Below are positions 34,776 to 51,782 of a DNA stretch of 64,000 nt, one piece after another (the stretch's first letter is position 1; each line of letters begins with the position of its first letter). Below the pieces are notes generated by a model that was not told where the DNA came from, did no database searches, and was given only the letters and a program-made list of their open reading frames with translations. The stretch covers positions 1 to 64,000 of the forward strand of contig PHBK01000010.1 in NCBI GenBank assembly GCA_002840565.1, read 5' to 3'. This stretch comes from Deltaproteobacteria bacterium HGW-Deltaproteobacteria-12 (GTDB lineage: Bacteria > Desulfobacterota > Syntrophia > Syntrophales > Smithellaceae). Made by a program: the position numbers and the translations under genes.

Positions 34776-35942
34776 TTAATCAAATTTTAACTCTTGCTTA
34801 AATTTTCTTATAATCAAAAGAGCATCCACGCCGGGAACCGGATTCAAAGGCGCAAATTCTCCGGAAGTCATCTCTTTAGCCTCCATAATGCCGCGGGATG
34901 TCACAACCATAATCGCATTGAAATAGGGCAAATCAGCCCGCAAATCGGGGAAAGGCGAGGTGGAACCGATGAATTTCGTGGCGAGCGAATTATCACCGGT
35001 AACCTTGATCAGGATATCTTCCAGCATCATGGCATAGGCGGCTCTGGTGACTATTTCCGCCGGATGAAAATTGCCATCGGGATAATTTTCCAGACCGCGC
35101 ACTCCAATTTCCAGAATTCCTTCAATGTCCGCCCTCAGGGGATGAGCGGCAATATCCTTAGCCGTTACCGCGGCCGGTTTAACTGCGGCCTTTTCCGGAT
35201 CTTTGAAAGACGTGTCAAAGGACTTGAGCGTCCTTTTCTTGTAGAGAACATCAATTTTCAATTCTTCCATCAGCAATGCCGAGGCATCGGCGCGGGTAAT
35301 GCGGTCAACAATGGCAATTATCTTACCATTGATTGTGCCGGGCATGGCGCGTTGAATTTTCTGGATGAGGTTCCACTGAACGTCAGCTTCGCTGATGTAA
35401 TCAGTTTTCAGATCGAGCACTTTAGCAAACATCTTCCCGGCCAACTCGAATTCCAAACCGGCCTTATAAGCCAGTCCCATGAAATAGTATGCCGGGGCAT
35501 GTTTTGCATCCATGAGGATGACATTATCAAATTCATCTTTAGCCAGATCGAGCCATTTCTTTTCCAGTTTGCCGGAAGTATAGTAGCGGATGCGGCTGAC
35601 ATAAACAAAGATCTTTTCATCATCGGCCTTGGCATATTTCCAACCCTTCTTAAGGTTGTCCCAGGCGGCGTCGAATTCTCCGGTAGCAGTTTTGACCAGC
35701 GCAATACCTGTATAAGCCTTGGAATATTTAGGATCAAGCGAAGTGGCCAGCTCAAATTCCCGCTGCGCGTCAGCATATTTAGCCTGATCAAGGAGACGTA
35801 AACCGGTATAAGTATGATGTTCCGGAGTGTCCAGCTGACTGGTCGGTATTCTGGCCTTAGGACCGCAGGAAATCAATAATAAAACTGCTGTCAAAAGCAT
35901 CAAGAAAGTTAGTGTTTTATTTATTTTCATTTGATGTATCAT
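34776..35942 (-). CDS. Lipoprotein with TPR repeats and an SLH-like C-terminus
   Basis: A 388-residue outer-envelope protein. The signal L-L-T-A-V-L-L-L-I-S-C-G has a lipobox cysteine. TPR-like pairs follow (A-K-Y-A-D-A-Q-R-E-F-E-L-A-T-S-L-D-P-K-Y and A-P-A-Y-Y-F-M-G-L-A-Y-K-A-G). From about 280 there is an S-layer-homology-like segment (I-L-E-I-G-V-R-G-L-E, F-H-P-A-E-I-V-T-R-A-A-Y-A), and a second half-unit at the end. SLH modules bind the cell wall or secondary polymers; in Gram-negatives they can link outer membrane to peptidoglycan. An ATG at 35930 is an alternative start. Role unknown. Confidence 0.75.
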   Translation of the reverse strand: MIHQMKINKTLTFLMLLTAVLLLISCGPKARIPTSQLDTPEHHTYTGLRLLDQAKYADAQREFELATSLDPKYSKAYTGIALVKTATGEFDAAWDNLKKGWKYAKADDEKIFVYVSRIRYYTSGKLEKKWLDLAKDEFDNVILMDAKHAPAYYFMGLAYKAGLEFELAGKMFAKVLDLKTDYISEADVQWNLIQKIQRAMPGTINGKIIAIVDRITRADASALLMEELKIDVLYKKRTLKSFDTSFKDPEKAAVKPAAVTAKDIAAHPLRADIEGILEIGVRGLENYPDGNFHPAEIVTRAAYAMMLEDILIKVTGDNSLATKFIGSTSPFPDLRADLPYFNAIMVVTSRGIMEAKEMTSGEFAPLNPVPGVDALLIIRKFKQELKFD

Positions 35943-38962: not shown

Positions 38963-41066
38963 CTATTCCTCTTTGTTTCCGGCCAGACGGCTGCGGAATT
39001 TTTCCATTAGCGGGTGGAGCACATTGACGTAATCATCAGTCCATGGGGCCATAGCTGCAAAACCATCCGTCTTTTCCAGTGCCACCCAGCCGCGCCGGAA
39101 AAGAGGATCGAGCCGTACCGGATCCCTGGCCAGGGCTACACATTTCGCCGCATTTTGATGAGGCTTCAGTTTGTCTTTAGGGATCGGGATATTCCTGGCC
39201 CCGGACAGTTTTAAATCACGGGCTATTGATTTTATGACCGGGCGAACTTCATAGTTGCGGTTAGAAACATGAAAAACAATTATTCCTTTGGGAGATAGAC
39301 GACTCAGGTAAACTTCGACAGCCTCCCGGGTTAAAAGGTTCGTGGGAATACCGTCTCCGCTGAAAGCATCTACAATAATAAGATCGTACAAGTATCCTGT
39401 CTTAACTTTATTTTGCAGTGATAGCCGGCCGTCTCCGGCAACGAAGTCAATTTTCCCCGGGCATTGTTCCCAAAAGGTAAAACACAACTGCGCAATCTCT
39501 AAATTATACTGGTCCAACTCATAAAAAGTAATAGAATCTTCCTTTTTGATATAGGCGGACATAACCCCCGAACCAAGACCGATCACCGCCGTACGACCCG
39601 GTGATTCTCCGGTTTCAAAAACATCCCCGATAGGCCCTCCTTTATGATAGTATGTTGTCGGTTCATATAAGGCATTGAGGATTTGCGACCCATGCAGGGT
39701 CATCCCGTTAGCCAGTTTCCGGATGACCGTTGGAGATCCGTTATAAAAAAAAGGAGCATCGATGATGCGATAGATTCCGTAAAAATTGCGGTGACGATAG
39801 ACGATATGCTCCCTCGTGGAATTCCAGATACCAAGGAAGACAAAATAGATAAGTATGCAGGCGGCTGATATCCGGGCAAAGCCAAAAACATTAAAGGCTT
39901 TAGGACGGAAAAAAATAACTGCTTCCGGATAACGATCCCAGAAGAGAATAGCCAGTAAGGCAATCAGGATCGGGTATTCAAAAAGGCCGAGAAATACGAG
40001 CGGCGCCAGAATACTTACGAAAGCGCCACCGACCCATCCGGCCAGAGCGATAATGAGATAAAATTTCGTTAACTGGTTTTTATGGGGACGAAGCAGGTAC
40101 AGGTTGCCGTGAGCCAGGCAACAGACCATAAACAGAGTCGCCAGAATCCCGAAAACAGCAAATCCGAAATGCCTGGGATCGATAAAATAACACAGCAGAG
40201 CTGCCAGCAATATTTCGGGCCAAAAACGGCTCAGCAGCCGCTGTGCACCGCCGGACGTCCGAAAGGTAACAACAAAACTGGCCAGATAGAGAGCCAGAGG
40301 GAATACCCAGGTCATGGGAACAGACCCGATTTCTAAAGTGATCATATTGGTAACCGCCAGAAGAAAAGCCGAGGGAAGACTGCTTAAAGCAAACCAGCGC
40401 AGATAAGTATTGGGTTTTATTGCTGTGCATTGGGCGCTTGCTGTTTCTGCCGGCACTTCCTGATCCTGCTTCCCGGGGCGCAGGATAAACCAGGCTGCCA
40501 CTACCAAAAGAGCATAAACTATGTAAACGCCGGTCCAGGCCAGCGATAACCTTTTCAAGCCCAGCAAAGGTTCGGCTATAAAAGTGTAGCCGAGCAAAGC
40601 CAGGAGAGCCCCGGCATTGGATACCGCATAGAGAGGATAAGGTTCATAATACTTGCCTGTCGGGGAGCTGGAAAGCCAAAATTGCGCAATGACAGCCGTC
40701 GTGGAAAGCAACAAGAACGGCAAGGCAACATTTTTCAACAGTGTTAAAAGTACATTCCATAAAGGGGCTTGGATATTGTATTCTGCCTGGAGGCTCAGGG
40801 GCAAATTGATGAACGGCAGCAAAAGAAAAAGCAAATGATAAGGTCCGACTTTTCTCGCCAGGAGATAGAGCATAGAGATAACCCAGGAAAAGCATCGCCT
40901 GAAAAAACATCAGGCATAACAGCCAGACGTTTGCGGCTCCTCCGAAATAAGGGGTAAGCATCCTACCCACAAGCGGTTCCATCCAGAAGAGAAGGATGGC
41001 CGCCAGGAAGACCATTGCGGTAAGTAAAACCATCCCGATTTTATGGATACGATTTTTTCCCTGCAA
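38963..41066 (-). pseudogene. Fused MFS/spermidine synthase-like membrane protein, frameshifted
   Basis: About 700 codons in two frames. From a TTG at 41066 (GGAGG eight bases ahead) the frame gives M-V-L-L-T-A-M-V-F-L-A-A, P-L-V-G-R-M-L-T-P-Y-F-G-G and L-G-Y-L-Y-A, then loses sense. One base later, at about 40868, the neighbouring frame continues Y-L-L-A-R-K-V-G-P-Y-H and runs to 38963. Removing a single base (a G on + at 40868) restores the expected L-G-Y-L-Y-A-Y-L-L-A-R. The first part has about twelve membrane helices. The last 250 residues form a spermidine-synthase-like Rossmann domain (V-I-G-L-G-S-G-V-M-S-A-Y, Y-D-L-I-I-V-D-A-F-S-G-D-G-I-P) without obvious polyamine specificity. Base error or real decay cannot be separated here. 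Confidence 0.75.
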
Positions 41067-41103
41067 GTTATTTGCCTCCAGTAAATGTTTTCCGTCCCGC
41101 CTT

Positions 41104-41253
41104 TTAGCGCTTTGAAGAAATGACCGGTTCCCAGGCATCAATTGAATTGACCACAATTTCTTTGGCAATAGATGCGGGCCGTTCGACAACTTCGCCGGCA
41201 GCGATTTTATCCCCTGTATCTTCGGATAAAACTGCAACAATACGACCGGACAA
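41104..41253 (-). pseudogene. Partial duplicate of the 5' end of mutL
   Basis: A 49-codon frame from TTG at 41253 with an AGGAG site. It reads [11 protein letters not shown] then [14 protein letters not shown] and N-S-I-D-A, after which the similarity to MutL ends and a stop follows at 41104. Bases match the true mutL start (38714-38835) at roughly 80-85%, with one 3-base insertion. Both copies point the same way and flank the spermidine-synthase-like gene as direct repeats. Confidence 0.8.
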
Positions 41254-41323
41254 TTTTAAGCTCCTGCAGCAGGGTGATGGCTGATCACCTCTAGGTGATA
41301 TGAGGCTAAATGGGGTTTCTAAT

Positions 41324-41647
41324 TCAGAGCAATCTGTTCAGCAGGATGTCTTCAACATTTTGCCTTGAATCAATAACTGTTAAAACAAAAACTGAGTCAT
41401 CTGATATACGATAGACAATCCTCCACGGAGCTACAATCAATTCCCGGTAGATGTTTATTCCTTGACCTTGTAATTCGGGAACTATTCGTCCGCGTTCAGG
41501 AAAAACATAAAGACTTGATACCTTTTGCCGAATTGTCTTAAGTATTTGTAAAGCATTGCCTGGGCTATCCGCTGCCACGTAATCGATAATCTGTTTTAAA
41601 TCCGCTTCCGCAACAGCCGCCCATTCAACCTTGTACTTTTTATTCAT
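41324..41647 (-). CDS. parE: ParE/RelE-type toxin
   Basis: A 107-residue protein of the RelE/ParE fold. It shows the early [17 protein letters not shown] pattern, a central [10 protein letters not shown] and the late [14 protein letters not shown] strand typical of ParE toxins. ParE members poison gyrase, RelE members cut mRNA on ribosomes; the sequence looks closer to ParE. Its start overlaps the antitoxin stop by 4 bases. Confidence 0.9.
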
Positions 41648-41925
41648 TTAAGCCTTTCTCTTAATGAGGCCTCGATTTCTTTAAACATATTTTCTTGTGG
41701 TTTCGTCTTGCCACATCGAACATCAGCTTCCCCTTGTGAAACAAGTTTCAATATGCCGATGGCGTTGCGCATATTTTCATAACTTTTCGGATCTTGCAGT
41801 ACAGCTCTCGGTTCACCGTTTTGGGTAATAATTACAGGTCTCTGTGTTTCATTGATTTGATTGAGTAAATCTGCAGCTCTTGATTTTAAATAAGTGACTG
41901 GTTTTATATCGTCTATGATCTTCAT
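41644..41925 (-). CDS. Phd/YefM-family antitoxin
   Basis: A 93-residue antitoxin. The N-terminal half (P-V-T-Y-L-K-S-R-A-A-D-L-L, R-P-V-I-I-T-Q-N-G-E-P-R-A-V-L) is the Phd/YefM DNA-binding fold. The C-terminal [12 protein letters not shown] helix should wrap the toxin. It is first in the operon, as usual, and expected to repress its own promoter. The pairing Phd-ParE is a known mixed combination. Confidence 0.9.
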   Translation of the reverse strand: MKIIDDIKPVTYLKSRAADLLNQINETQRPVIITQNGEPRAVLQDPKSYENMRNAIGILKLVSQGEADVRCGKTKPQENMFKEIEASLRERLK

Positions 41926-42436: not shown

Positions 42437-43300
42437 TCAATCCAGTACAATCATGACGCGGCATTTCTTCATGAAGGAAGCATTGTCAGCCGAAGCGCGA
42501 ATCTGCTGGGCATCGGCATTGCTGATAACGAGATCCGCTTTCCCGGCACCGCTCGTCTTCAACGCTTTGACTGTAACGGGGCTGTTTGTTACTCTCTGGT
42601 TGCTCTGGGCAGCCGTCAGGTCGCGGGCATAACCGCTCATGCCCTGCTGAACAGCGTATTCACGGTCAACGTTGGCAGAGCCGTAAACCTCTTTGCCGTC
42701 CTCATCAAAAACCCGGGGCGACATCGCCGGACGAGCTGCAATACCGCGGGCATCGATAACCAGCCCGGTATAGGTCATGGGAGGTCCGGCCGGTGCCGGA
42801 GCAGCGGGCGGCTCGGGCGGTCTCAAATCCTTGCGTTTTTCAATGGAAGCCGGAATGATAACCTGGGAAAGGTTGCCGTAAAGAGGCATTCTTATTCGAA
42901 CTTCAACCGTCCCATCGGACATATATTGCTGATCCACAATAACTGCGCCTTTTACCAGACCGTCTACCTGTGTATTAATAACATCGCTTTCCACGGTGAA
43001 GTCTTTTATCGTTGTCGTGGAATCAACCCGTACGCCTTTGGTAATTTCCAATAAATTCCGGTAGGCATCAATTTTGGCGGCGCGCAGAGCCATCGGCCGG
43101 GCATTAGCCTTGCCGATTGATTTATCAGCCGGAGCACCGATTCCCAGTGCTTCAATATAACCTGCAGACCAGTTAACTGCACCTTGACCGATTTTTTCCG
43201 TCCATTCGGATGCGCTGATCTTATCCTGACAAATACCTGCTCCGGCAAAAAGGAGCAACAAACCGGTAATTGCTGCTACGGAAATGAATCTTAGCTTCAT
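42437..43300 (-). CDS. LPP20/FlgP-like secreted protein
   Basis: A 287-residue exported protein: signal peptide 1-24 ending G-A-G-I-C-Q. The LPP20-type core follows (A-R-P-M-A-L-R-A-A-K-I-D-A-Y-R-N-L-L-E, then V-D-G-L-V-K-G-A-V-I-V-D and V-E-V-R-I-R-M-P-L-Y-G). This alanine-rich helix plus two strands is the fold shared by Helicobacter Lpp20 and flagellar FlgP. A proline-rich linker (P-P-E-P-P-A-A-P-A-P) leads to a C-terminal domain with Y-T-G-L-V-I-D-A-R-G, P-R-V-F-D-E-D-G-K-E-V-Y-G, common in such proteins. Last gene of the operon. Confidence 0.8.
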   Translation of the reverse strand: MKLRFISVAAITGLLLLFAGAGICQDKISASEWTEKIGQGAVNWSAGYIEALGIGAPADKSIGKANARPMALRAAKIDAYRNLLEITKGVRVDSTTTIKDFTVESDVINTQVDGLVKGAVIVDQQYMSDGTVEVRIRMPLYGNLSQVIIPASIEKRKDLRPPEPPAAPAPAGPPMTYTGLVIDARGIAARPAMSPRVFDEDGKEVYGSANVDREYAVQQGMSGYARDLTAAQSNQRVTNSPVTVKALKTSGAGKADLVISNADAQQIRASADNASFMKKCRVMIVLD

Positions 43301-43420
43301 AAATATCCTCCTTTGGTTGTTTACCGGAGATCGATTATCCCGGAAAACAAGTCATTCGTTCTCTAGTTCATAAATAAAAAATAGCAAAATCCCCTTAATG
43401 TTGCAATAAGAATTGCACTA

Positions 43421-46168
43421 TTATTTTTTACCCGAGAAAGCCTGGGGCTCTTCTTTAACAAGCCAGGGTTTTATATTGACATTATCTCCCCAAATCATGT
43501 TCTGATCCGGCGGGTTAGCTCCCCACCAATTATTGCGGGCATCAATATAGATCGTAGAAAAACTTTGCAGCGCCACTGTGTTGCCAACGAAATTATTGAA
43601 ATTAATCTTCGGATTGGCCATACCGACGCATTTAATGGCACCTTCGCCATGGTTTTCGGCCAATGTATTATAGAACAGAACAGGTGCGGCATCCTTGCGG
43701 CAGAAAACTGCATTTTGCGCCGAATAAAGTATCTGGCAATAAGAAATTTCCGGCGATCCGGCATAAATATCAAAGGCCGTGGTGGCATATTTAATAATGC
43801 AGTAGGCAAAAGAGCTGTTCACTTTTGTTTGTTTGGATAAACGCACGGCATTGTTATAAAAACCAGGTGACGGCGAAGAAGCCGCCGCTGTAAATATTAT
43901 GGGGTTTTCTTTTGTGCCGCGGGCAATGATACCGCCATCTTCGGCAATCAACGAAGTTTTTTGTTCAAATTCGACAACAACTCCCGGCTCGATGTAAAGT
44001 GTCGCCCCGCCGTCAATCACCACATCCTTAGTCACTCGATAAGGACTGTTGGACAGGATCAAATAGGAATCGGTCTGTATTCTGCCGCTTAAACTCTTGC
44101 CCAGCGCATTTATGGCCAGAGATTTCCCCTGCGGGTAAGGGCAGTCCAGTACAGAGGAGATATCCACTCTCCCCTGAATGCCGGCCAGTACTTCCAGAAT
44201 TTTCGCGCTCCCCCACCAGTTGTCCAGGGCTTTAACCGCTGCCCCGGACATATTGCCGACAATGTTATACGGCTTGTTATCGACGATATTGTTCCGGCTG
44301 ATATTTATGCCGGCTCCTTTCACGATGATGCCATTGTTGCTGTTCCTGGCCAGAGTATTCTGGACGAACTCCGGCGCGGCGGATTGAACCAGCAAACCGG
44401 TATTATCATTATCCTGAATAGAGTTTTCGATAATTACCGGTGCGGCCCCGTCGCTGACCGAAACAGCAATCCCCCTGTTCTTGTAGAGGGAATTCTTATT
44501 AATTTCCGGCTTGGAGAATGCTCCCTGAATTTTCAAAACTTCATTATTTTGCGTAAACTCGGACATTTCAATCTTCGGCGAAGAAGCCTGGAGATTGATT
44601 GCGGTCAGGGCATTCTTAATTCGCACAAATTTAATTATGTTCTCTTTATCTTTAACATTGGCAAAAAGGATTCCCGGCCAGGATTGACCTTCGCCCAGTG
44701 CATCAAAATTGATGATATGATCGTTATCTCCCGAGGCGTTAATCCTCCCTTCGATAATCAGCGCCCCGCCCTTTGATTTAATTTCCGTGCCCGGTTCGAT
44801 TGTCAACAGAGCTTTGTCTTTAACAATAACATCCTTTTCCAGAATATAGGGGCTGGCACCGGAATACCAGATCGTATCGGCTTCAATTACTCCGGCGACA
44901 GCAGTAGGTCCCGGTGCTACGGGCATTCCCGTTATTTGTGCCATTTCGCTTTCATTACCGGCAATGTCGTAAGCGGAAACCCGATAATAATATTTCTGTG
45001 AATTGATCAGTGCGGGTCCGGCATCGCGATAATCGTTAACTTCCGTCTTGGCGATCTCCGCATACCCGCTGAGCGGCGTATTGGAACGATAAATCTTATA
45101 ACCGGCAAGATAAGGCGCAGCCGATTTTTCCCAATTTAACAAAACCAGGGCACTGCGTCCCACACCGTTTAGATTCTTGGGTTTGGGCGGAGGAGTCGTC
45201 AGCAGGGTCACGGAACTGATGGCATCCACCCACTGTGCCGTATTGCCGGCATCATCCCGAAGGTAACCGGTAATAATGGCCTTTTCGATGTTATCTCCCG
45301 GCACCACTTTATAAACACCGTAATACCCGCCCGGTTCAATTTCCTGCATCTCAATATTTTTCTTATGATCGCCGATGTCAAAATAAGCCTGCATTTTAGG
45401 CGTACCCTGAATGACTACTTTGATTTCCGCGCCGGCTTTTTTCGGCAGGCCTTTGGAGTCCTGAGTAAGCAGAGTGATTGTTGGCGGCCGCAGCACGTCC
45501 GCAATCCGCGGCACCGGAATCGTTTTAACCATATCGCGGAACAGATCGTCATTGGCGCGCAGCAGCTGAATATCGCGCACGTTCATCGCCGTGGCAATGA
45601 CCGTGGCAATTATGCCAATCGGGTTCGTCGATATGCCGCCTTCGTGCTTCCGTACAATGTGTTTGCCGCTCCAAAGGAAATTGCCTGTTTTGGTATCGTA
45701 CATCTTAATTTCCGCGCCGACGGAAACCTGGGAATACATCACGGCAAACAACTTATCAAAGTTCGAAATCTCACCAAAAACGACGGCATCAACACCCAGG
45801 ATTTTGCCCAATTCCTGCGGGGGCATCTTGCTGATTGCTTCAGGATCGGTCAGTCCGGCTTTTCTCAATAAATTATCTATCCGGTAGAGCTCCAGATCCT
45901 TAAAAGGAAGAGAGCTGAAGTGATTGTAAAACCCCCGCCGCATTGTATCAAAACCTTCCTTGCTTTTAGACAAATCAACAAACGGCATGACGGCGACTGA
46001 TTGAGGAATATGATCTTTCATGTAAGGATCAATTTTGTAGTCTCCTTCATATAAAGATCTAATTTCAGGAGTTATTACAGTAGTTTGCGTGGCCACAAGA
46101 CAGCTTTGCAAGGAAATAAAGATCGGCAGTAGTAGCAAAAGAGTTAACAATTTGAAATACTTTTGCAT
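43421..46168 (-). CDS. GNA1162-like lipoprotein with FN3 domain and right-handed beta-helix
   Basis: A 915-residue lipoprotein (lipobox cysteine at 23, S-L-Q-S-C). Residues about 50-230 match the GNA1162/DUF799 family, a CsgG relative: S-V-A-V-M-P-F-V-D, E-L-G-K-I-L-G-V-D-A-V-V-F-G-E-I and T-K-T-G-N-F-L-W-S-G. Next come a linker, one fibronectin type III domain (about 330-420; W-E-K-S-A-A-P-Y-L-A-G-Y-K-I-Y-R-S) and two tracts of parallel beta-helix (about 430-900) with N-N-x-G-I-x-V and N-W-W-G signatures, like NosD/periplasmic copper-binding repeats. The Cys anchor and repeats suggest a large surface or periplasmic structure. The joining of these three modules is unusual. Confidence 0.8.
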   Translation of the reverse strand: MQKYFKLLTLLLLLPIFISLQSCLVATQTTVITPEIRSLYEGDYKIDPYMKDHIPQSVAVMPFVDLSKSKEGFDTMRRGFYNHFSSLPFKDLELYRIDNLLRKAGLTDPEAISKMPPQELGKILGVDAVVFGEISNFDKLFAVMYSQVSVGAEIKMYDTKTGNFLWSGKHIVRKHEGGISTNPIGIIATVIATAMNVRDIQLLRANDDLFRDMVKTIPVPRIADVLRPPTITLLTQDSKGLPKKAGAEIKVVIQGTPKMQAYFDIGDHKKNIEMQEIEPGGYYGVYKVVPGDNIEKAIITGYLRDDAGNTAQWVDAISSVTLLTTPPPKPKNLNGVGRSALVLLNWEKSAAPYLAGYKIYRSNTPLSGYAEIAKTEVNDYRDAGPALINSQKYYYRVSAYDIAGNESEMAQITGMPVAPGPTAVAGVIEADTIWYSGASPYILEKDVIVKDKALLTIEPGTEIKSKGGALIIEGRINASGDNDHIINFDALGEGQSWPGILFANVKDKENIIKFVRIKNALTAINLQASSPKIEMSEFTQNNEVLKIQGAFSKPEINKNSLYKNRGIAVSVSDGAAPVIIENSIQDNDNTGLLVQSAAPEFVQNTLARNSNNGIIVKGAGINISRNNIVDNKPYNIVGNMSGAAVKALDNWWGSAKILEVLAGIQGRVDISSVLDCPYPQGKSLAINALGKSLSGRIQTDSYLILSNSPYRVTKDVVIDGGATLYIEPGVVVEFEQKTSLIAEDGGIIARGTKENPIIFTAAASSPSPGFYNNAVRLSKQTKVNSSFAYCIIKYATTAFDIYAGSPEISYCQILYSAQNAVFCRKDAAPVLFYNTLAENHGEGAIKCVGMANPKINFNNFVGNTVALQSFSTIYIDARNNWWGANPPDQNMIWGDNVNIKPWLVKEEPQAFSGKK

Positions 46169-46184
46169 AGGAGGTCTCCCTTTC

Positions 46185-46244
46185 TTAGGAGCCGTTACAA
46201 AATAATTGTTACTTTCTGGTGGATCATTTCGTTACGGCTCCTTA
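46185..46244 (-). other. Intercistronic stem-loop inside the envelope operon
   Basis: AGGAGCCGT (46187-46195) pairs exactly with ACGGCTCCT (46234-46242) across a 38-base loop. It lies between the FN3 gene and the GNA1162-like gene, just before the latter's ribosome-binding site. It may set relative expression or RNA stability. Confidence 0.45.
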
Positions 46245-46309
46245 TGCCGTCTCTCTTTTTAAACGGCACACTTATTTTTTACGGCGGCTTAATTAAAAAA
46301 AAGAGCTCT

Positions 46310-48556
46310 TTATTTTGCGAATACGGTAATTTCTGCGCTGGGTGGACTTTCCAGGCCGTCGCGATCAACCGCCGTGATTACATATACCCTGTCTTTACCT
46401 TTAGCTATGGAACTGTCCGCATAGCTGTTTGATTTTACTTCGGCTAATTTTTCGAGGCTGAAAAAACGCTTTTCATAAATAATATACTGGGAAATATCTG
46501 CCTCTTTATTCTGTTCCCAGGTAATTAACGCCTTTCCCGTTTCATAGGCCCCCTTCAAACCAGACGGCGGCTGCGGCCTGGGCTTAGTGCTGACATTAAT
46601 AACCTCGGAAAAATCACTCAATAATTCATCTTTATCTTCAGCCTGGATTTTATAGCGGTACGCAACTCCATCTTTTAAGTTTTTATCGACATAGGAAGAT
46701 TTATTAACCTTGTCTATTTTGGAAAAATCATCTTTGTCTGCGGCAGCCCGGTATATATAATAAGTGTTGATATCTTTTTCCGGATTAGCCTGCCACTGCA
46801 GCGGCACTTCTTTGACTTTAAGCGCCTCCCCCCGCAAACCGGAAGGCTTTTGTGGTCTGGGTTTTGTTGTCGCCGAAGCCGCCACCGGCAAACTTTCCGC
46901 TGCCACTTTGTTAAAAGCGGTTAATTTATAATAGTATGTTTTGCTGTCGGCTAATTTATCAAAACCGCGCGAATCATCAAGATGTTTGCCATTTCCTCGG
47001 CCGCTGATTTTTTTCAGCAAATCATACCGGCCGTCTTTTTCGTGCGCCCAGTAAATGTTGTAACCCTCAACCTCTTCTTGGTTTGCCGGTGTCCAGGTAA
47101 GCTCTACCTTCTTCACGAGACCGCTTCGGGCGGAAAAATTCTCCGTAGACGGTGGAATATCTCTTGTGGTCGCCTTGGCAACAGGCGATGGGCTCGTTTC
47201 TATTCCCAGATCGTCTTCCGCAGTCACATAATAGTAATAATTTATTTTGTCGCCTAATCCTTCCAAATCCGTATAAAGAAAATTTTCTTTGAGTTCAGCT
47301 GCCTTTATCTTTGTAATTCTGTTAAAATTGCCGTCATTTTTCAGACTCCGATAAATATTATAAGCAGCAAGAAAAGGAGATTGCACACCAGCCCAGGTTA
47401 TTCTGACTTCGCGGATCAAATCGCTCTGAGCATTGGCTGACGAAACTGCCGCCATGGTTGTGCCCTTCAGGGGATGGCTGAGTTCACTTTCAATATCTTT
47501 TTCATTGAAGGCAGCCAGACGATAAAAATAGACACTGCCGTCAGGCAGCGCTTTATCGCGATAATATATTTTCCCGTCCGAGTTGTCCGCAGAGATGGCA
47601 TTTGCCGAAAGTTTAGCTATTTCTTGATAAGAACCCTCTTCAGCTTTTGACCGGTAGATTTTGTAACCGGCCAAACGGGATGAATCCTTGCTTTTGAGTG
47701 GATTAGGAGACCCAACAATCAAAACACTCTTGGCGCGCCCTTCTATCTTTAAAATTATCGGTGGATTGGGCGCAAAATCAGTGCTGGCGGAAAGGACCGG
47801 TGTAAAATCACTGACCTTGCCCATTTTGTCGATTGCCCTTACCTTATAATAATAAACTGTGACATTATCAACATTCTGATCAATGAATTCATTCTGATCG
47901 GTCCGCCCGGCCATGGCGAAAGGACCGGCAGAGTTGAGCGCACGATATACTTCATAGACGGCGCCGGCAAAGCCCGGCGTATCCTGCCAGCGCAATATAA
48001 TTTTTTTATTACCGGGAATTTTCTGGAAATTGGCCGGATAAACGGATCCCTTTTCACCGGCCCCTGATGCTCTGATTTCCGCGGAACTATTTCTTTTCAG
48101 GGCCGCCGAGATCAAAGAACCTAATTTACCGATTTCCGCCTGAATTGCGGATTCGCCGAACGTTCTTATCCGTTCAGAGTATACTTCTCTTTTTTTATCA
48201 ATAGAAATCAAACTGCAGTTTATATAAATAGCCGAGCCTCTTTTATCGACAGAACCTACAATGATAAAGTCAAGGCCCAGCCGCGTGCCTATGTTGACAA
48301 CATTATCCAACTGGTCATTTTGCTGCAGATCGTTGAAGTTCAGAAAGGCTTCCAGGTCTTTGCGATCGAGCAAAAATATAGATGCATCATTTTTTAATAC
48401 ATTGGTCAATAAGTTGGTTACAGTGGTGCCCAACCCGGAAGCTTCCAGATTGACGGTCCCAAAATTGAAAACAGATATCTTACTGGCATTTCCTTTTCCC
48501 GCGCCGATGAAGAATACGAGGGTCAACAACATCGCAATGAAGATTTTTTTGGGCAT
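46310..48556 (-). CDS. CsgG/FlgO-like protein with six FN3 domains
   Basis: A 748-residue exported protein. The signal peptide ends near 24 (G-A-G-K-G-N-A). Residues 25-155 form a CsgG/FlgO-like domain: I-S-V-F-N-F-G-T, F-L-L-D-R-K-D-L-E-A-F, and G-L-D-F-I-I-V-G-S-V-D-K. From about 168 to the end there are six fibronectin type III domains, each with a W near strand B, a Y-x-I-Y-R strand C and a Y-Y-Y-x-V/L-x-A strand F; linkers K-P-R-P-Q-P-P-S-G-L repeat. FN3 arrays act as spacers or protein-binding arms outside the cell. No lipobox. Confidence 0.8.
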   Translation of the reverse strand: MPKKIFIAMLLTLVFFIGAGKGNASKISVFNFGTVNLEASGLGTTVTNLLTNVLKNDASIFLLDRKDLEAFLNFNDLQQNDQLDNVVNIGTRLGLDFIIVGSVDKRGSAIYINCSLISIDKKREVYSERIRTFGESAIQAEIGKLGSLISAALKRNSSAEIRASGAGEKGSVYPANFQKIPGNKKIILRWQDTPGFAGAVYEVYRALNSAGPFAMAGRTDQNEFIDQNVDNVTVYYYKVRAIDKMGKVSDFTPVLSASTDFAPNPPIILKIEGRAKSVLIVGSPNPLKSKDSSRLAGYKIYRSKAEEGSYQEIAKLSANAISADNSDGKIYYRDKALPDGSVYFYRLAAFNEKDIESELSHPLKGTTMAAVSSANAQSDLIREVRITWAGVQSPFLAAYNIYRSLKNDGNFNRITKIKAAELKENFLYTDLEGLGDKINYYYYVTAEDDLGIETSPSPVAKATTRDIPPSTENFSARSGLVKKVELTWTPANQEEVEGYNIYWAHEKDGRYDLLKKISGRGNGKHLDDSRGFDKLADSKTYYYKLTAFNKVAAESLPVAASATTKPRPQKPSGLRGEALKVKEVPLQWQANPEKDINTYYIYRAAADKDDFSKIDKVNKSSYVDKNLKDGVAYRYKIQAEDKDELLSDFSEVINVSTKPRPQPPSGLKGAYETGKALITWEQNKEADISQYIIYEKRFFSLEKLAEVKSNSYADSSIAKGKDRVYVITAVDRDGLESPPSAEITVFAK

Positions 48557-48603
48557 TTACCGTCTCCAGTCCATTGAGTCAGTACTACTTCCGGCAGCGT
48601 GAT

Positions 48604-50592
48604 TTACTTATCAGCAACAAGCTTATCAATGGTCTCCAGTGACCTCTGCGTTATCGGTGTAGCAATCCCCTTCAGCTTCTCGTCAAAAACGGCATCGGTA
48701 TATTTTTCTACGGCCAAATCCAGATTGCGTCGTTTTTGCTGGGATTGGGCCTGATTATAATATTCAACCTCCAGGCTCTGGAAGTGTTTGAGAATTCCGC
48801 TGCCCATCTCCGATACCTTGGAATTAGTAATTTCGTCGAGAACTTCGGCTTCTGTGGGCAACTCGAGGGGATCCTGCGCAATTCCGGCAATCGGCACACC
48901 GTCCTGATATTTATCTTCCTTGATTAACTTGCCGGCCACTGTACTGGCAAAGATATTTTCCCCTGTCTGTGTATCCACCAGCTTAAATGATATTTCCAAC
49001 AGAGCATTGATTCTCGCCGCTCCCTGTTTATAGGATATCAGCTGGTAATTTCTCTTTTTAACTGTCCGGGGCGGAGCGTTTTTCAGATCCTCTGCTGACG
49101 GCTTGGGATTAATCATCAGCCAGTCGGAAAATTCCGGATTGCGCACATCTTCTTCGTCCACCAGCACTTTAACCTGATTGAGGCTGGGGGCATCCGTGTA
49201 TTTGGTCGAAAAATGCAAGACGTCGCCCATAATAAAAGTATCTATGCCACGCATCTTACCTACACTTTGAGCTGTCTTAATATCGACCAGGCCTGTCTGG
49301 CTGAGCTGCATTTCCTTTAAGATTGATTGCAGATTTTCCCGCTCAATAATACGCAAATCGGCACTGGCATTTTTATGGAGATAAGCGATCAGTTTGTTGG
49401 CGGCAATTTTACCGGCATCTTTTTCAGAACTCGGAGAACTGAAATCAAAGACGGCAATTGATTTGCGAATTCTTTTATTTATGGCATCTTTAACTTCAAT
49501 CATTTTTTGGAACAATTCCGGATAGTTGGGATTTACTGCTTCAACTTTCTGCATCCAAATCAACGCGTTTCCCCATAATTCTTTCTCTATTAATTTTTCC
49601 GCCCGCTTCATCAGCGCGTCACATGCAACAGTCAGATTTTCTTTATACAGCGGGTCATTCTGCATGGAAGGCATAAATTTACGCGCCATTTCCATTTTTT
49701 TCATGGCCGCATAAAGCTTCCCCTGCTTCACCAGTTTCACGGAATCATCCAGATAAATCTGGCCTAATTTTGCTCTTAGTTTTTCCAGTTTGGCGCCCAG
49801 AGCGGGATCGACAGACGGGTAGTCATGCGCTTTTTCATAAAGGATTACGGCCCGTTCCCAATTTTTCGCCGCCTCCGCCTTTGCTCCTTCAGACATGTAA
49901 TAGTTCAAGTTATCTTTGAGCCTGGCATCTTCATATCGCCTGGAAACATCGAGATAATTCGGGTTAATATCCATGGCCATTTTAAAAACATCAGCGGCCA
50001 TTTTCCAATCTTCCTGCCTGCCGAGATTGTTAGCCTGCTGATAAAGGGTCTTCACGCCCTCCTGCCGGCTTTTTACCAGCCTGCTGCCGGTATCTTCATA
50101 ATTAGGAAAAATTTTGTTGATCTGGTTTAACTTGGCAATCGCTGCAGTCCATTCTTCCTTTTGCATATCAATTTCGGCCTGCTGATATAGATTCTTCAAA
50201 GAAGACTTCAGGTCGTTTATTTTCCCGTTTACATTGTTGCGCACCGCTTTGATATCGGAATTCTCCGGATCCATGGCTGCCATGACATCAATATCCTTGG
50301 CAATCTTTTCCAGTGCCGGAAGATTTTGCTCGCCCGCACCAAGAGACTGTCTGACTTTAGCTAAGCGAGCCTTTGCCGCATCCTGTTTGGCGCGCGTAAG
50401 CGCGTCTTTGTATTCCTGATTTCCCGGTTCTTCATTGACAGCTTTTTCAAAATAAGCAATCGCTTCCTCCCAACGGTTATCTTTGACAAATTCCTGCCCC
50501 TGTTTATAGCTTTCATTAACCGCACCGCAGGCGGCAAGAAATGTGATAATAATTCCAATTGCAAACACCTTAGACAATTTTTTAGATTTCAT
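48604..50592 (-). CDS. TPR lipoprotein with a CsgG-type domain
   Basis: A 662-residue lipoprotein from the ATG at 50592 (GGAGG site just ahead). Lipobox F-L-A-A-C puts the anchor at residue 22. Residues 28-380 are tetratricopeptide repeats (E-G-x-E-A-I-A-Y-F-E-K-A type). From about 385 there is a CsgG-like domain: K-S-I-A-V-F-D-F-S, L-R-I-I-E-R-E-N-L-Q-S-I-L-K-E-M, R-G-I-D-T-F-I-M-G-D-V and A-L-L-E-I-S-F-K-L-V-D-T-Q-T-G-E. CsgG itself forms the curli export pore, but the long inserts and the absence of obvious transmembrane hairpins mean pore formation is unproven. Confidence 0.85.
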   Translation of the reverse strand: MKSKKLSKVFAIGIIITFLAACGAVNESYKQGQEFVKDNRWEEAIAYFEKAVNEEPGNQEYKDALTRAKQDAAKARLAKVRQSLGAGEQNLPALEKIAKDIDVMAAMDPENSDIKAVRNNVNGKINDLKSSLKNLYQQAEIDMQKEEWTAAIAKLNQINKIFPNYEDTGSRLVKSRQEGVKTLYQQANNLGRQEDWKMAADVFKMAMDINPNYLDVSRRYEDARLKDNLNYYMSEGAKAEAAKNWERAVILYEKAHDYPSVDPALGAKLEKLRAKLGQIYLDDSVKLVKQGKLYAAMKKMEMARKFMPSMQNDPLYKENLTVACDALMKRAEKLIEKELWGNALIWMQKVEAVNPNYPELFQKMIEVKDAINKRIRKSIAVFDFSSPSSEKDAGKIAANKLIAYLHKNASADLRIIERENLQSILKEMQLSQTGLVDIKTAQSVGKMRGIDTFIMGDVLHFSTKYTDAPSLNQVKVLVDEEDVRNPEFSDWLMINPKPSAEDLKNAPPRTVKKRNYQLISYKQGAARINALLEISFKLVDTQTGENIFASTVAGKLIKEDKYQDGVPIAGIAQDPLELPTEAEVLDEITNSKVSEMGSGILKHFQSLEVEYYNQAQSQQKRRNLDLAVEKYTDAVFDEKLKGIATPITQRSLETIDKLVADK

Positions 50593-50635
50593 AATGTCCT
50601 CCAACATTTAAGATATGCCGAAAAAATATAATTAC

Positions 50636-51748
50636 CTAAGGCAGAAGAACTGCCTCAACTCTGTTCGGACTTATTTCGACAACTTTTATTTTTTTGTTTT
50701 TAACTGTTATCTGCGCCACATCATGAGCAACAGCATCCGCATTCCCTTCAATTTCCAAATCTAATTCCACTTTGCCCCGGGAATAATAACGCTGATTCAA
50801 TGCCTTAAATCCCTTAATCTCTTCTGCCAGCAATGATTTGAATTCCTGAAGATCGGCATAAGAATTCAGGCCGCTCACCACTAATTTTACCGTAGCTGTA
50901 TTTGTTAATTCCGCAGACCAATTCTCCAGAACACTATCAACCAAATTACGGGCGAGTTTGGCGACCACTTCCTCAGTTAAAGCTTTGAAATCGCCTTTCA
51001 TGCCGGGAGCTGATTTCTGCTCGGTGCCGGTAGTTATTATGCTGCCGGTATCGCCATTGATAATTTTGCCGGAGATGACAACCTTATTATGATTCATTTC
51101 TACATCATTAATCTTAAAGGGATTACTTACAGCCTCAACAGTGTTTACAATGATAATTTCCGCCCCGTAGCGATGTGCTATCCCGGAAATAACTTTTTGT
51201 TCGGCAGCATCCTGCAGCCGCTCATAATCTTTATTTTTCTTTATTGTCCGGGCATCAACCAATTTAAAACCCTGGGCAATAAAATATTTGGACATTGCCG
51301 CTTCCGCAACAGCATCTTTGCTTGCCGTCCCCGTAAAAACCAGCATTACCCTGGGTTTTGATTTACGAATCATAATCAGGTTGATGGCTGTCATTTTGTC
51401 GCGCAATTTCCCCTGGCTGATTTGTGCTTCAATTGCCACTTCATAGTTGTCACCGGTTCTTTTTTCGGAAATTATCTTGTAAGAACTGATATAACCCTGA
51501 GACTCGGAAAGGATGCGGTCCATTTTCACTTGAAAATTCTCTACACTCGTTGCGCTGGTAATCATGACTCCTATAGCTTTTTCTACAGCATTGCGCTGTG
51601 CTTCATCGAGTGCTTTGCTCCGGGCAATGTCAACCATATTTTTCGATATTGTTGCCATACCTTTCGCTTGAACTTTGTGTTGGGCATAAACCGGCGTGGT
51701 CAAAACAGCAAAAAAAACAAGAACGAGAAAAATTATGGCTTTTTTCAT
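50636..51748 (-). CDS. FlgT-like envelope protein
   Basis: About 370 residues from the ATG at 51748 (one at 51757 is also possible). The signal peptide ends V-Y-A-Q. The N-terminal domain (25-115) resembles FlgT_N: V-Q-A-K-G-M-A, A-R-S-K-A-L-D-E-A-Q-R-N-A-V-E-K-A-I-G-V and a following Y-I-S-S-Y-K-I-I-S-E strand. A middle domain with M-L-V-F-T-G-T-A, A-H-R-Y-G-A-E-I-I-I-V-N-T and G-K-I-I-N-G-D-T-G fits the FlgT/CsgG-type middle fold. The last 80 residues form a small alpha/beta domain. First gene of the operon. No flagellar genes are nearby. Confidence 0.72.
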   Translation of the reverse strand: MKKAIIFLVLVFFAVLTTPVYAQHKVQAKGMATISKNMVDIARSKALDEAQRNAVEKAIGVMITSATSVENFQVKMDRILSESQGYISSYKIISEKRTGDNYEVAIEAQISQGKLRDKMTAINLIMIRKSKPRVMLVFTGTASKDAVAEAAMSKYFIAQGFKLVDARTIKKNKDYERLQDAAEQKVISGIAHRYGAEIIIVNTVEAVSNPFKINDVEMNHNKVVISGKIINGDTGSIITTGTEQKSAPGMKGDFKALTEEVVAKLARNLVDSVLENWSAELTNTATVKLVVSGLNSYADLQEFKSLLAEEIKGFKALNQRYYSRGKVELDLEIEGNADAVAHDVAQITVKNKKIKVVEISPNRVEAVLLP

Positions 51749-51782
51749 AATAGACACCTGTCGAAAACTTCCGGATATTTTA

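Follow-up and report, generated by a model that had tools for sequence, protein, structure and literature searches.

The window, a stretch of 64,000 nucleotides from the genome of a Smithella-like member of the Syntrophales, carries five open reading frames on the minus strand that lie in the order P1-P2-P3-P4-P5 and span positions 42437-51748 (Table 1). All five were recovered where the original prediction had placed them, and its assertion that envelope genes of the CsgG, GNA1162, LPP20 and FlgT types occur here together was confirmed by Pfam searches and, for P5, by a family profile. Two start sites were revised: that of P1 was moved from GTG 51757 to ATG 51748, and that of P2 from 50607 to ATG 50592, with the motif GGAGG located upstream of the new start. 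When single sequences were searched against Pfam, two domains scored below their cut-offs, namely CsgG in P3 (14.9 versus 20.8 bits) and LPP20 in P5 (17.2 versus 25.9 bits). The predicted FN3, TPR and beta-helix parts were borne out by above-cut-off matches to fn3, TPR and Beta_helix. A regular expression combined with inspection by eye yielded six FN3-type repeats in P3 and one further repeat in P4, the regular expression alone finding five of the six. PHROG matches of P3 to tail fibres were attributed to FN3 resemblance and discounted.

Table 1. Genes and transcription signals at the locus, with positions in the window.
Feature	Position	Strand	Description
P1	50636..51748	-	FlgT-like secreted protein, 370 aa; Pfam FlgT_N 36.9 bits, over cut-off
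P2	48604..50592	-	Lipoprotein with TPR superhelix and CsgG-family domain; Pfam TPR and CsgG (38.0 bits) over cut-off
P3	46310..48556	-	Weak CsgG-like domain and six FN3; Pfam fn3 57.8 bits, over cut-off
P4	43421..46168	-	GNA1162-like lipoprotein with FN3 and two right-handed beta-helix regions
P5	42437..43300	-	FlgP/LPP20-type domain; C-terminal domain resembling second domain of 5jir
TPR-SLH lipoprotein	34776..35942	-	TPR and SLH; SLH 29.4 bits, over cut-off; downstream of P5
Promoter of P1-P4	51870..51898	-	TTGACA-17-TATATT; 11/12 consensus matches, top site of scanned region
Probable P5 promoter	43378..43406	-	TTGCAA-17-TATTTT, extended -10; 8/12 consensus matches
Intrinsic terminator after P5	42370..42410 (approx.)	-	Fold -26.1 kcal/mol, z -6.5

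P4 has an N-terminal GNA1162 domain (59.2 bits versus a Pfam cut-off of 25.9) that is preceded by a lipobox, and further an Ig-like region, FN3 and beta-helix (Beta_helix, 50.7 bits, over cut-off). Across 16 loci the identity of P4 is 55-81% and its lipobox cysteine, Cys23, is invariant. P2 likewise has an invariant lipobox cysteine. A profile of the P4 family retrieves the GNA1162 structure 4hrv (E 3.6e-12), and P4 also shows a weak match to the LpoB model. P4 shares its N-terminal domain with the GNA1162 lipoproteins and differs from them in being four to five times longer, with its Ig-like, FN3 and two beta-helix regions; short GNA1162-like genes of about 200-230 aa also occur in many of these genomes.

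The first and last proteins of the set resemble flagellar ring components. When an AlphaFold2 model of P1 (mean pLDDT 75.5, pTM 0.45) was compared with the PDB, full-length FlgT ranked first (3w1e, 408 columns aligned, E 2.5e-12), followed by a Vibrio LPHT-ring chain (8z5n) and by GNA1162, CsgG and PelC over shorter stretches. The TM-score against 3w1e is only 0.31 (rmsd 17.5 Å), probably as a result of domain orientation; in the model P1 has the three-domain FlgT fold. For P5, a profile built from 16 sequences retrieves solved FlgP-type chains with E-values between 2.6e-14 (9hmf) and 1.4e-6, including 8z5n_2 and 9yec at about 2e-8, and on the strength of these profile matches we classify P5 as a FlgP-type protein despite its sub-cut-off LPP20 score. 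The C-terminal domain of P5 is matched by the profile to 5jir (E 8.4e-7), a Treponema protein. In the FlgP/FlgT family, the members that form rings tend to be those in which a hairpin is inserted after the SHS2 helix and before the second strand (PMC12222027). P1 and P5 align without gaps with ring-forming FlgP chains across the segment between helix and second strand, which is where that study locates the ring-forming hairpin, and the aligned insert, together with homology, suggests that both proteins may form rings. A close comparison for P5 is the FlgP basal disk of Campylobacter (PMC12222027), which is built from the same SHS2-type domain family and has the hairpin insert that correlates with rings; however, the disk is part of the flagellar motor, whereas P5 lacks a lipobox and carries a second domain.

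The AlphaFold2 model of P2 (mean pLDDT 82.5, pTM 0.47) places a TPR superhelix before a CsgG-type domain; a fold search with the whole model had only TPR and other helical-repeat proteins among its best matches, and is uninformative on the CsgG domain. A CsgG-type pore has two transmembrane beta-hairpins per subunit. In the CsgG-type domain of P2, strands of 33 and 31 residues are predicted to form one long hairpin, which, together with the above-cut-off CsgG score, would fit an export channel of the CsgG or PelB/PelC type in which P2 is the outer-membrane pore and the other proteins form its periplasmic collar. The pairing of TPRs with PelC-like domains resembles PelB/PelC, and the middle domain of P1 also matches the PelC and CsgG rings. 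Nevertheless, we consider such a channel unlikely. Residues 465-530 of the P2 hairpin include 19 charged residues out of 66, mostly with no clean amphipathic pattern, although the hairpins of E. coli CsgG, used as a control, are likewise charged and are not cleanly set apart by this pattern, and inspection of the sequences revealed no long hairpins in the CsgG-like domains of P3 and P4. The neighbourhood contains no conserved substrate or synthase gene, and CsgF was found in none of 149 Syntrophales genomes in a search that detected the E. coli control, by which a curli secretion system was rejected. The CsgG-family domains of P2 and, weakly, of P3 are what the set shares with the curli channel; it differs in occurring in genomes without CsgF and in that P2 is a TPR fusion whose pore function is not evident. 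Similarly, TPRs and a PelC/CsgG-like ring domain are held in common with the PelB/PelC exopolysaccharide exporter, whereas no Pel synthase genes were seen near P1-P5 and no PelB-type barrel was seen. The original prediction had offered an outer-membrane ring or export machine with long arms; a ring with arms is the best current reading, and export is not supported by the hairpin evidence.

A consensus promoter at one end of the set and a terminator at the other had also been predicted, and both stand: of four relatives examined, all but L079 have a close equivalent of the -35/-10 pair 5' of P1, and the terminator is strong (Table 1). A further promoter motif, in the gap between P4 and P5, recurs, slightly altered, when the window is aligned by eye with five relatives, and P5 is therefore probably also transcribed from its own promoter. 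The gene set would then comprise at least two transcription units, in agreement with the broader occurrence of P5 described below. No Rfam match was obtained when structural RNAs were sought in the intergenic gaps. The gap between P3 and P4 is filled by a palindromic element of ~100 bp (46180-46275, minus strand; fold z -6.5), which is missing in four relatives, where the gap measures ~20-45 bp, and of which ~19 partial copies (22-70 bp) are scattered through the same genome; because of this absence and dispersal it looks like a REP/MITE-type repeat. Another segment, at 38963-41925 on the minus strand between P5 and mutL, holds a Phd/YefM-ParE toxin-antitoxin pair together with a gene for a membrane protein of 636 aa that has no Pfam match and whose second half appears by eye to be spermidine-synthase-like. 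In many relatives P5 and mutL adjoin.

A sixth gene, encoding a lipoprotein with TPR and SLH domains, is associated with the set. In the window it is separated from P5 by the inserted segment, mutL and miaA, the mutL/miaA spacing being usual in the Syntrophales, and it directly follows P5 in loci of the Desulfobacterales and of family f59. The TPR-SLH protein is present in 61 of 66 P4-positive genomes and in 100 of the 149 Syntrophales genomes overall; since 30 of the latter are without P5, it is associated with the set rather than exclusive to it. We also considered binding of the SLH domain to a polymer pyruvylated by a CsaB-type enzyme (PF04230). This was rejected, as PF04230 occurs in only 31 of the 149 genomes, compared with the 100 that have the SLH protein; this genome does carry a single PF04230 gene, and the SLH domain may have a different ligand.

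The five-gene set recurs well beyond this genome. In a set of 84,980 species genomes, the named relatives carry the labels Smithella, Smithellaceae, Syntrophaceae, Syntrophales and Desulfobacterales or are further deltaproteobacterial MAGs; two have no label beyond Proteobacteria or Pseudomonadota. The full P1-P2-P3-P4-P5 order is present in 20 of 40 inspected loci, representing 12 families, and in three further loci that are cut by contig ends. Of the 149 Syntrophales genomes, 47 have P2, 66 have P4 (score of at least 200 bits) and 85 have P5, and their presence is nested: 44 of the 47 P2-positive genomes also have P4 (p=1e-17) and P5 is found in every one of the 66 with P4 (p=4e-25), although these Fisher p-values ignore shared ancestry and, because the genomes are kin, overstate the independent evidence. 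Across 297 genomes of the phylum, with the same reservation, P4 accompanies P2 in 13 of 25 (p=1e-9) and P5 accompanies P4 in 25 of 25 (p=3e-19). Conversely, 19 Syntrophales genomes have P5 without P4 and 22 have P4 without P2.

Throughout the Desulfobacterota, P1-P2-P3 and P4-P5 behave as recurring blocks. The order P1-P2-P3 is kept in distant families in which P4 was not found nearby (L151-L160), and in the majority of distant genomes P4 and P5 lie on one contig, mostly adjacent. In one genus of the host's family, P1-P2-P3 and P4 are on different contigs and both are retained (L165-L168), while P5 remains with mutL-miaA-SLH. Since the two modules are separable, each must be of some use alone. 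The description of the locus as a five-gene operon consequently holds as regards a co-occurring set, and needs amending for the likely separate promoter of P5, the separability of the modules and the TPR-SLH partner that it had missed. Additional genes accompany the set in some relatives: between P3 and P4 there are genes for a small secreted protein and for one with a metallo-beta-lactamase fold, and near P5 there are FecR, FlgT-like, GNA1162-like and CsgG-like paralogues. The own genome contains a second cluster, with two CsgG-family proteins and one FlgT-like protein, at ~234-237 kb of contig C25 (L001, L181), which is possibly a paralogous assembly. Just upstream of P1-P2-P3 in a locus of family f59 (L151, 591-6904) lies a cluster of LPP20, TPR-SLH, FlgT-like, GNA1162-like, CsgG and FecR genes that amounts to a pared-down form of this inventory. 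P4 is split into several frames in L148 (10256-12376), from a genome that bears the label Syntrophus aciditrophicus, which suggests decay or an assembly error.

Conservation relative to the window was assessed in the ten loci from which none of the nine genes under comparison is missing. Median identities are 60.5% for P4, 60.4% for the SLH protein, 56.9% for P2, 55.0% for P5, 51.3% for P1 and 44.3% for P3, against 45.9% for MutL, 50.4% for MiaA and 69.7% for ValS. P2, P4, P5 and the SLH protein are therefore more conserved than the neighbouring MutL and MiaA. Because its identity exceeds that of both, P4 with its beta-helix is unlike a fast-changing adhesin, and a variable surface adhesin was ruled out.

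The gene set is independent of flagella and curli, in keeping with the original remark that no flagellar or curli genes are near. Neither of the two observations named there as contradicting the prediction, a lack of co-occurrence in other genomes and clear links to a flagellar or curli locus in this one, was made. FlgI is missing from the own genome, whose estimated completeness is 100%; in all, 24 of the 47 P2-positive genomes lack it, several of them at 98-100% estimated completeness. FlgI is present in the other 23, and P2 and FlgI show no association (p=0.15). As three congeners are among the genomes with FlgI, its absence from the own genome could be a loss or an assembly gap, and flagellum independence rests on the whole genome set. 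A flagellar accessory ring encoded apart from the flagellar genes would account for the FlgT likeness of P1, the FlgP likeness of P5 and the FlgI-positive genomes; however, it is largely refuted by the genomes that have the P1-P5 set and no P-ring gene, and we regard it as very improbable. The resemblance to the Vibrio H-ring and T-ring proteins FlgT, FlgP and FlgO (3w1e, 8z5n) is nonetheless close: P1 has the predicted FlgT fold and P5 the FlgP-type domain, both align through the ring-forming insert, and both are accompanied by outer-membrane lipoproteins with CsgG/GNA1162-like folds. In contrast to the Vibrio rings, the set occurs without flagella, has TPR, FN3, beta-helix and SLH parts added, includes no FlgO-family match, and has an extra C-terminal domain in P5.

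Alternatively, the products could be lipoproteins that serve envelope maintenance separately, as tethers and as LpoB/GNA1162-like regulators of peptidoglycan synthesis, and that are co-inherited and do not form one machine. The LpoB and GNA1162 folds are related, P4 has its weak LpoB match, and LpoB is also matched (2e-6) by a CsgG paralogue of one domain in L151; moreover, the modules are separable and a housekeeping neighbourhood (truA, rmlD, mutL, miaA, valS) persists in many genomes. Set against this, P1-P2-P3 keep the same order even in remote families and P2 occurs without P4 in just 3 of 47 Syntrophales genomes, which together indicate a joint function, and we find separate lipoproteins a rather doubtful explanation.

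We propose instead that P1-P5 and the TPR-SLH lipoprotein make up a scaffold, independent of flagella, between the outer membrane and the cell wall, with rings of P1 and P5 and arms of FN3 and beta-helix, a reading to which we give about an even chance. The separability of the modules, the occurrence of the SLH protein in genomes without P5 and the imperfect monomer models weigh against it. The scaffold would lie against the outer membrane on its inner side, where P5 and P1 would polymerise into rings through the beta-hairpin used by the FlgP and FlgT rings. The lipoproteins P2, P4 and TPR-SLH, contributing TPR and CsgG, GNA1162, and TPR and SLH domains, respectively, would anchor at the membrane and stack on the rings, with the SLH and C-terminal domains extending to the cell wall and P3 and P4 providing long, stiff arms. 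Because gene presence is nested, assembly may begin with P5 as the base, continue with P4 on P5, and end with P1-P2-P3 as an optional outer module. Its function could be to stiffen or tether the envelope, or to serve as a collar for some surface structure.

Flagella are where rings of FlgP/FlgT type are known to occur, and the individual domains described here are likewise known; what appears to be new, judging by the open-access literature searched, is how they are combined, how well the combination is conserved and that it exists without a flagellum. The suggestion that the assembly may be undescribed agrees with our search, in which no description of the P1-P5 combination was found in open-access publications, a body that misses most subscription journals. 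More tentatively, the locus may represent a previously undescribed envelope nanomachine of the Desulfobacterota, with FlgP/FlgT-type stacked rings below the outer membrane, an SLH-lipoprotein tie to the wall and FN3/beta-helix arms, that is flagellum-free and possibly reflects an ancestral use out of which flagellar H/T-rings and basal disks were recruited. A strongly conserved, multi-part version in lineages without flagella would show that such rings exist in their own right and would bear on the origin of flagellar accessory rings. Some of the densities that tomograms of anaerobic syntrophs leave unexplained would then have candidate proteins. Smithella-type bacteria belong to methane-producing communities and their outer envelope is poorly studied; a concrete gene set for it is now at hand.
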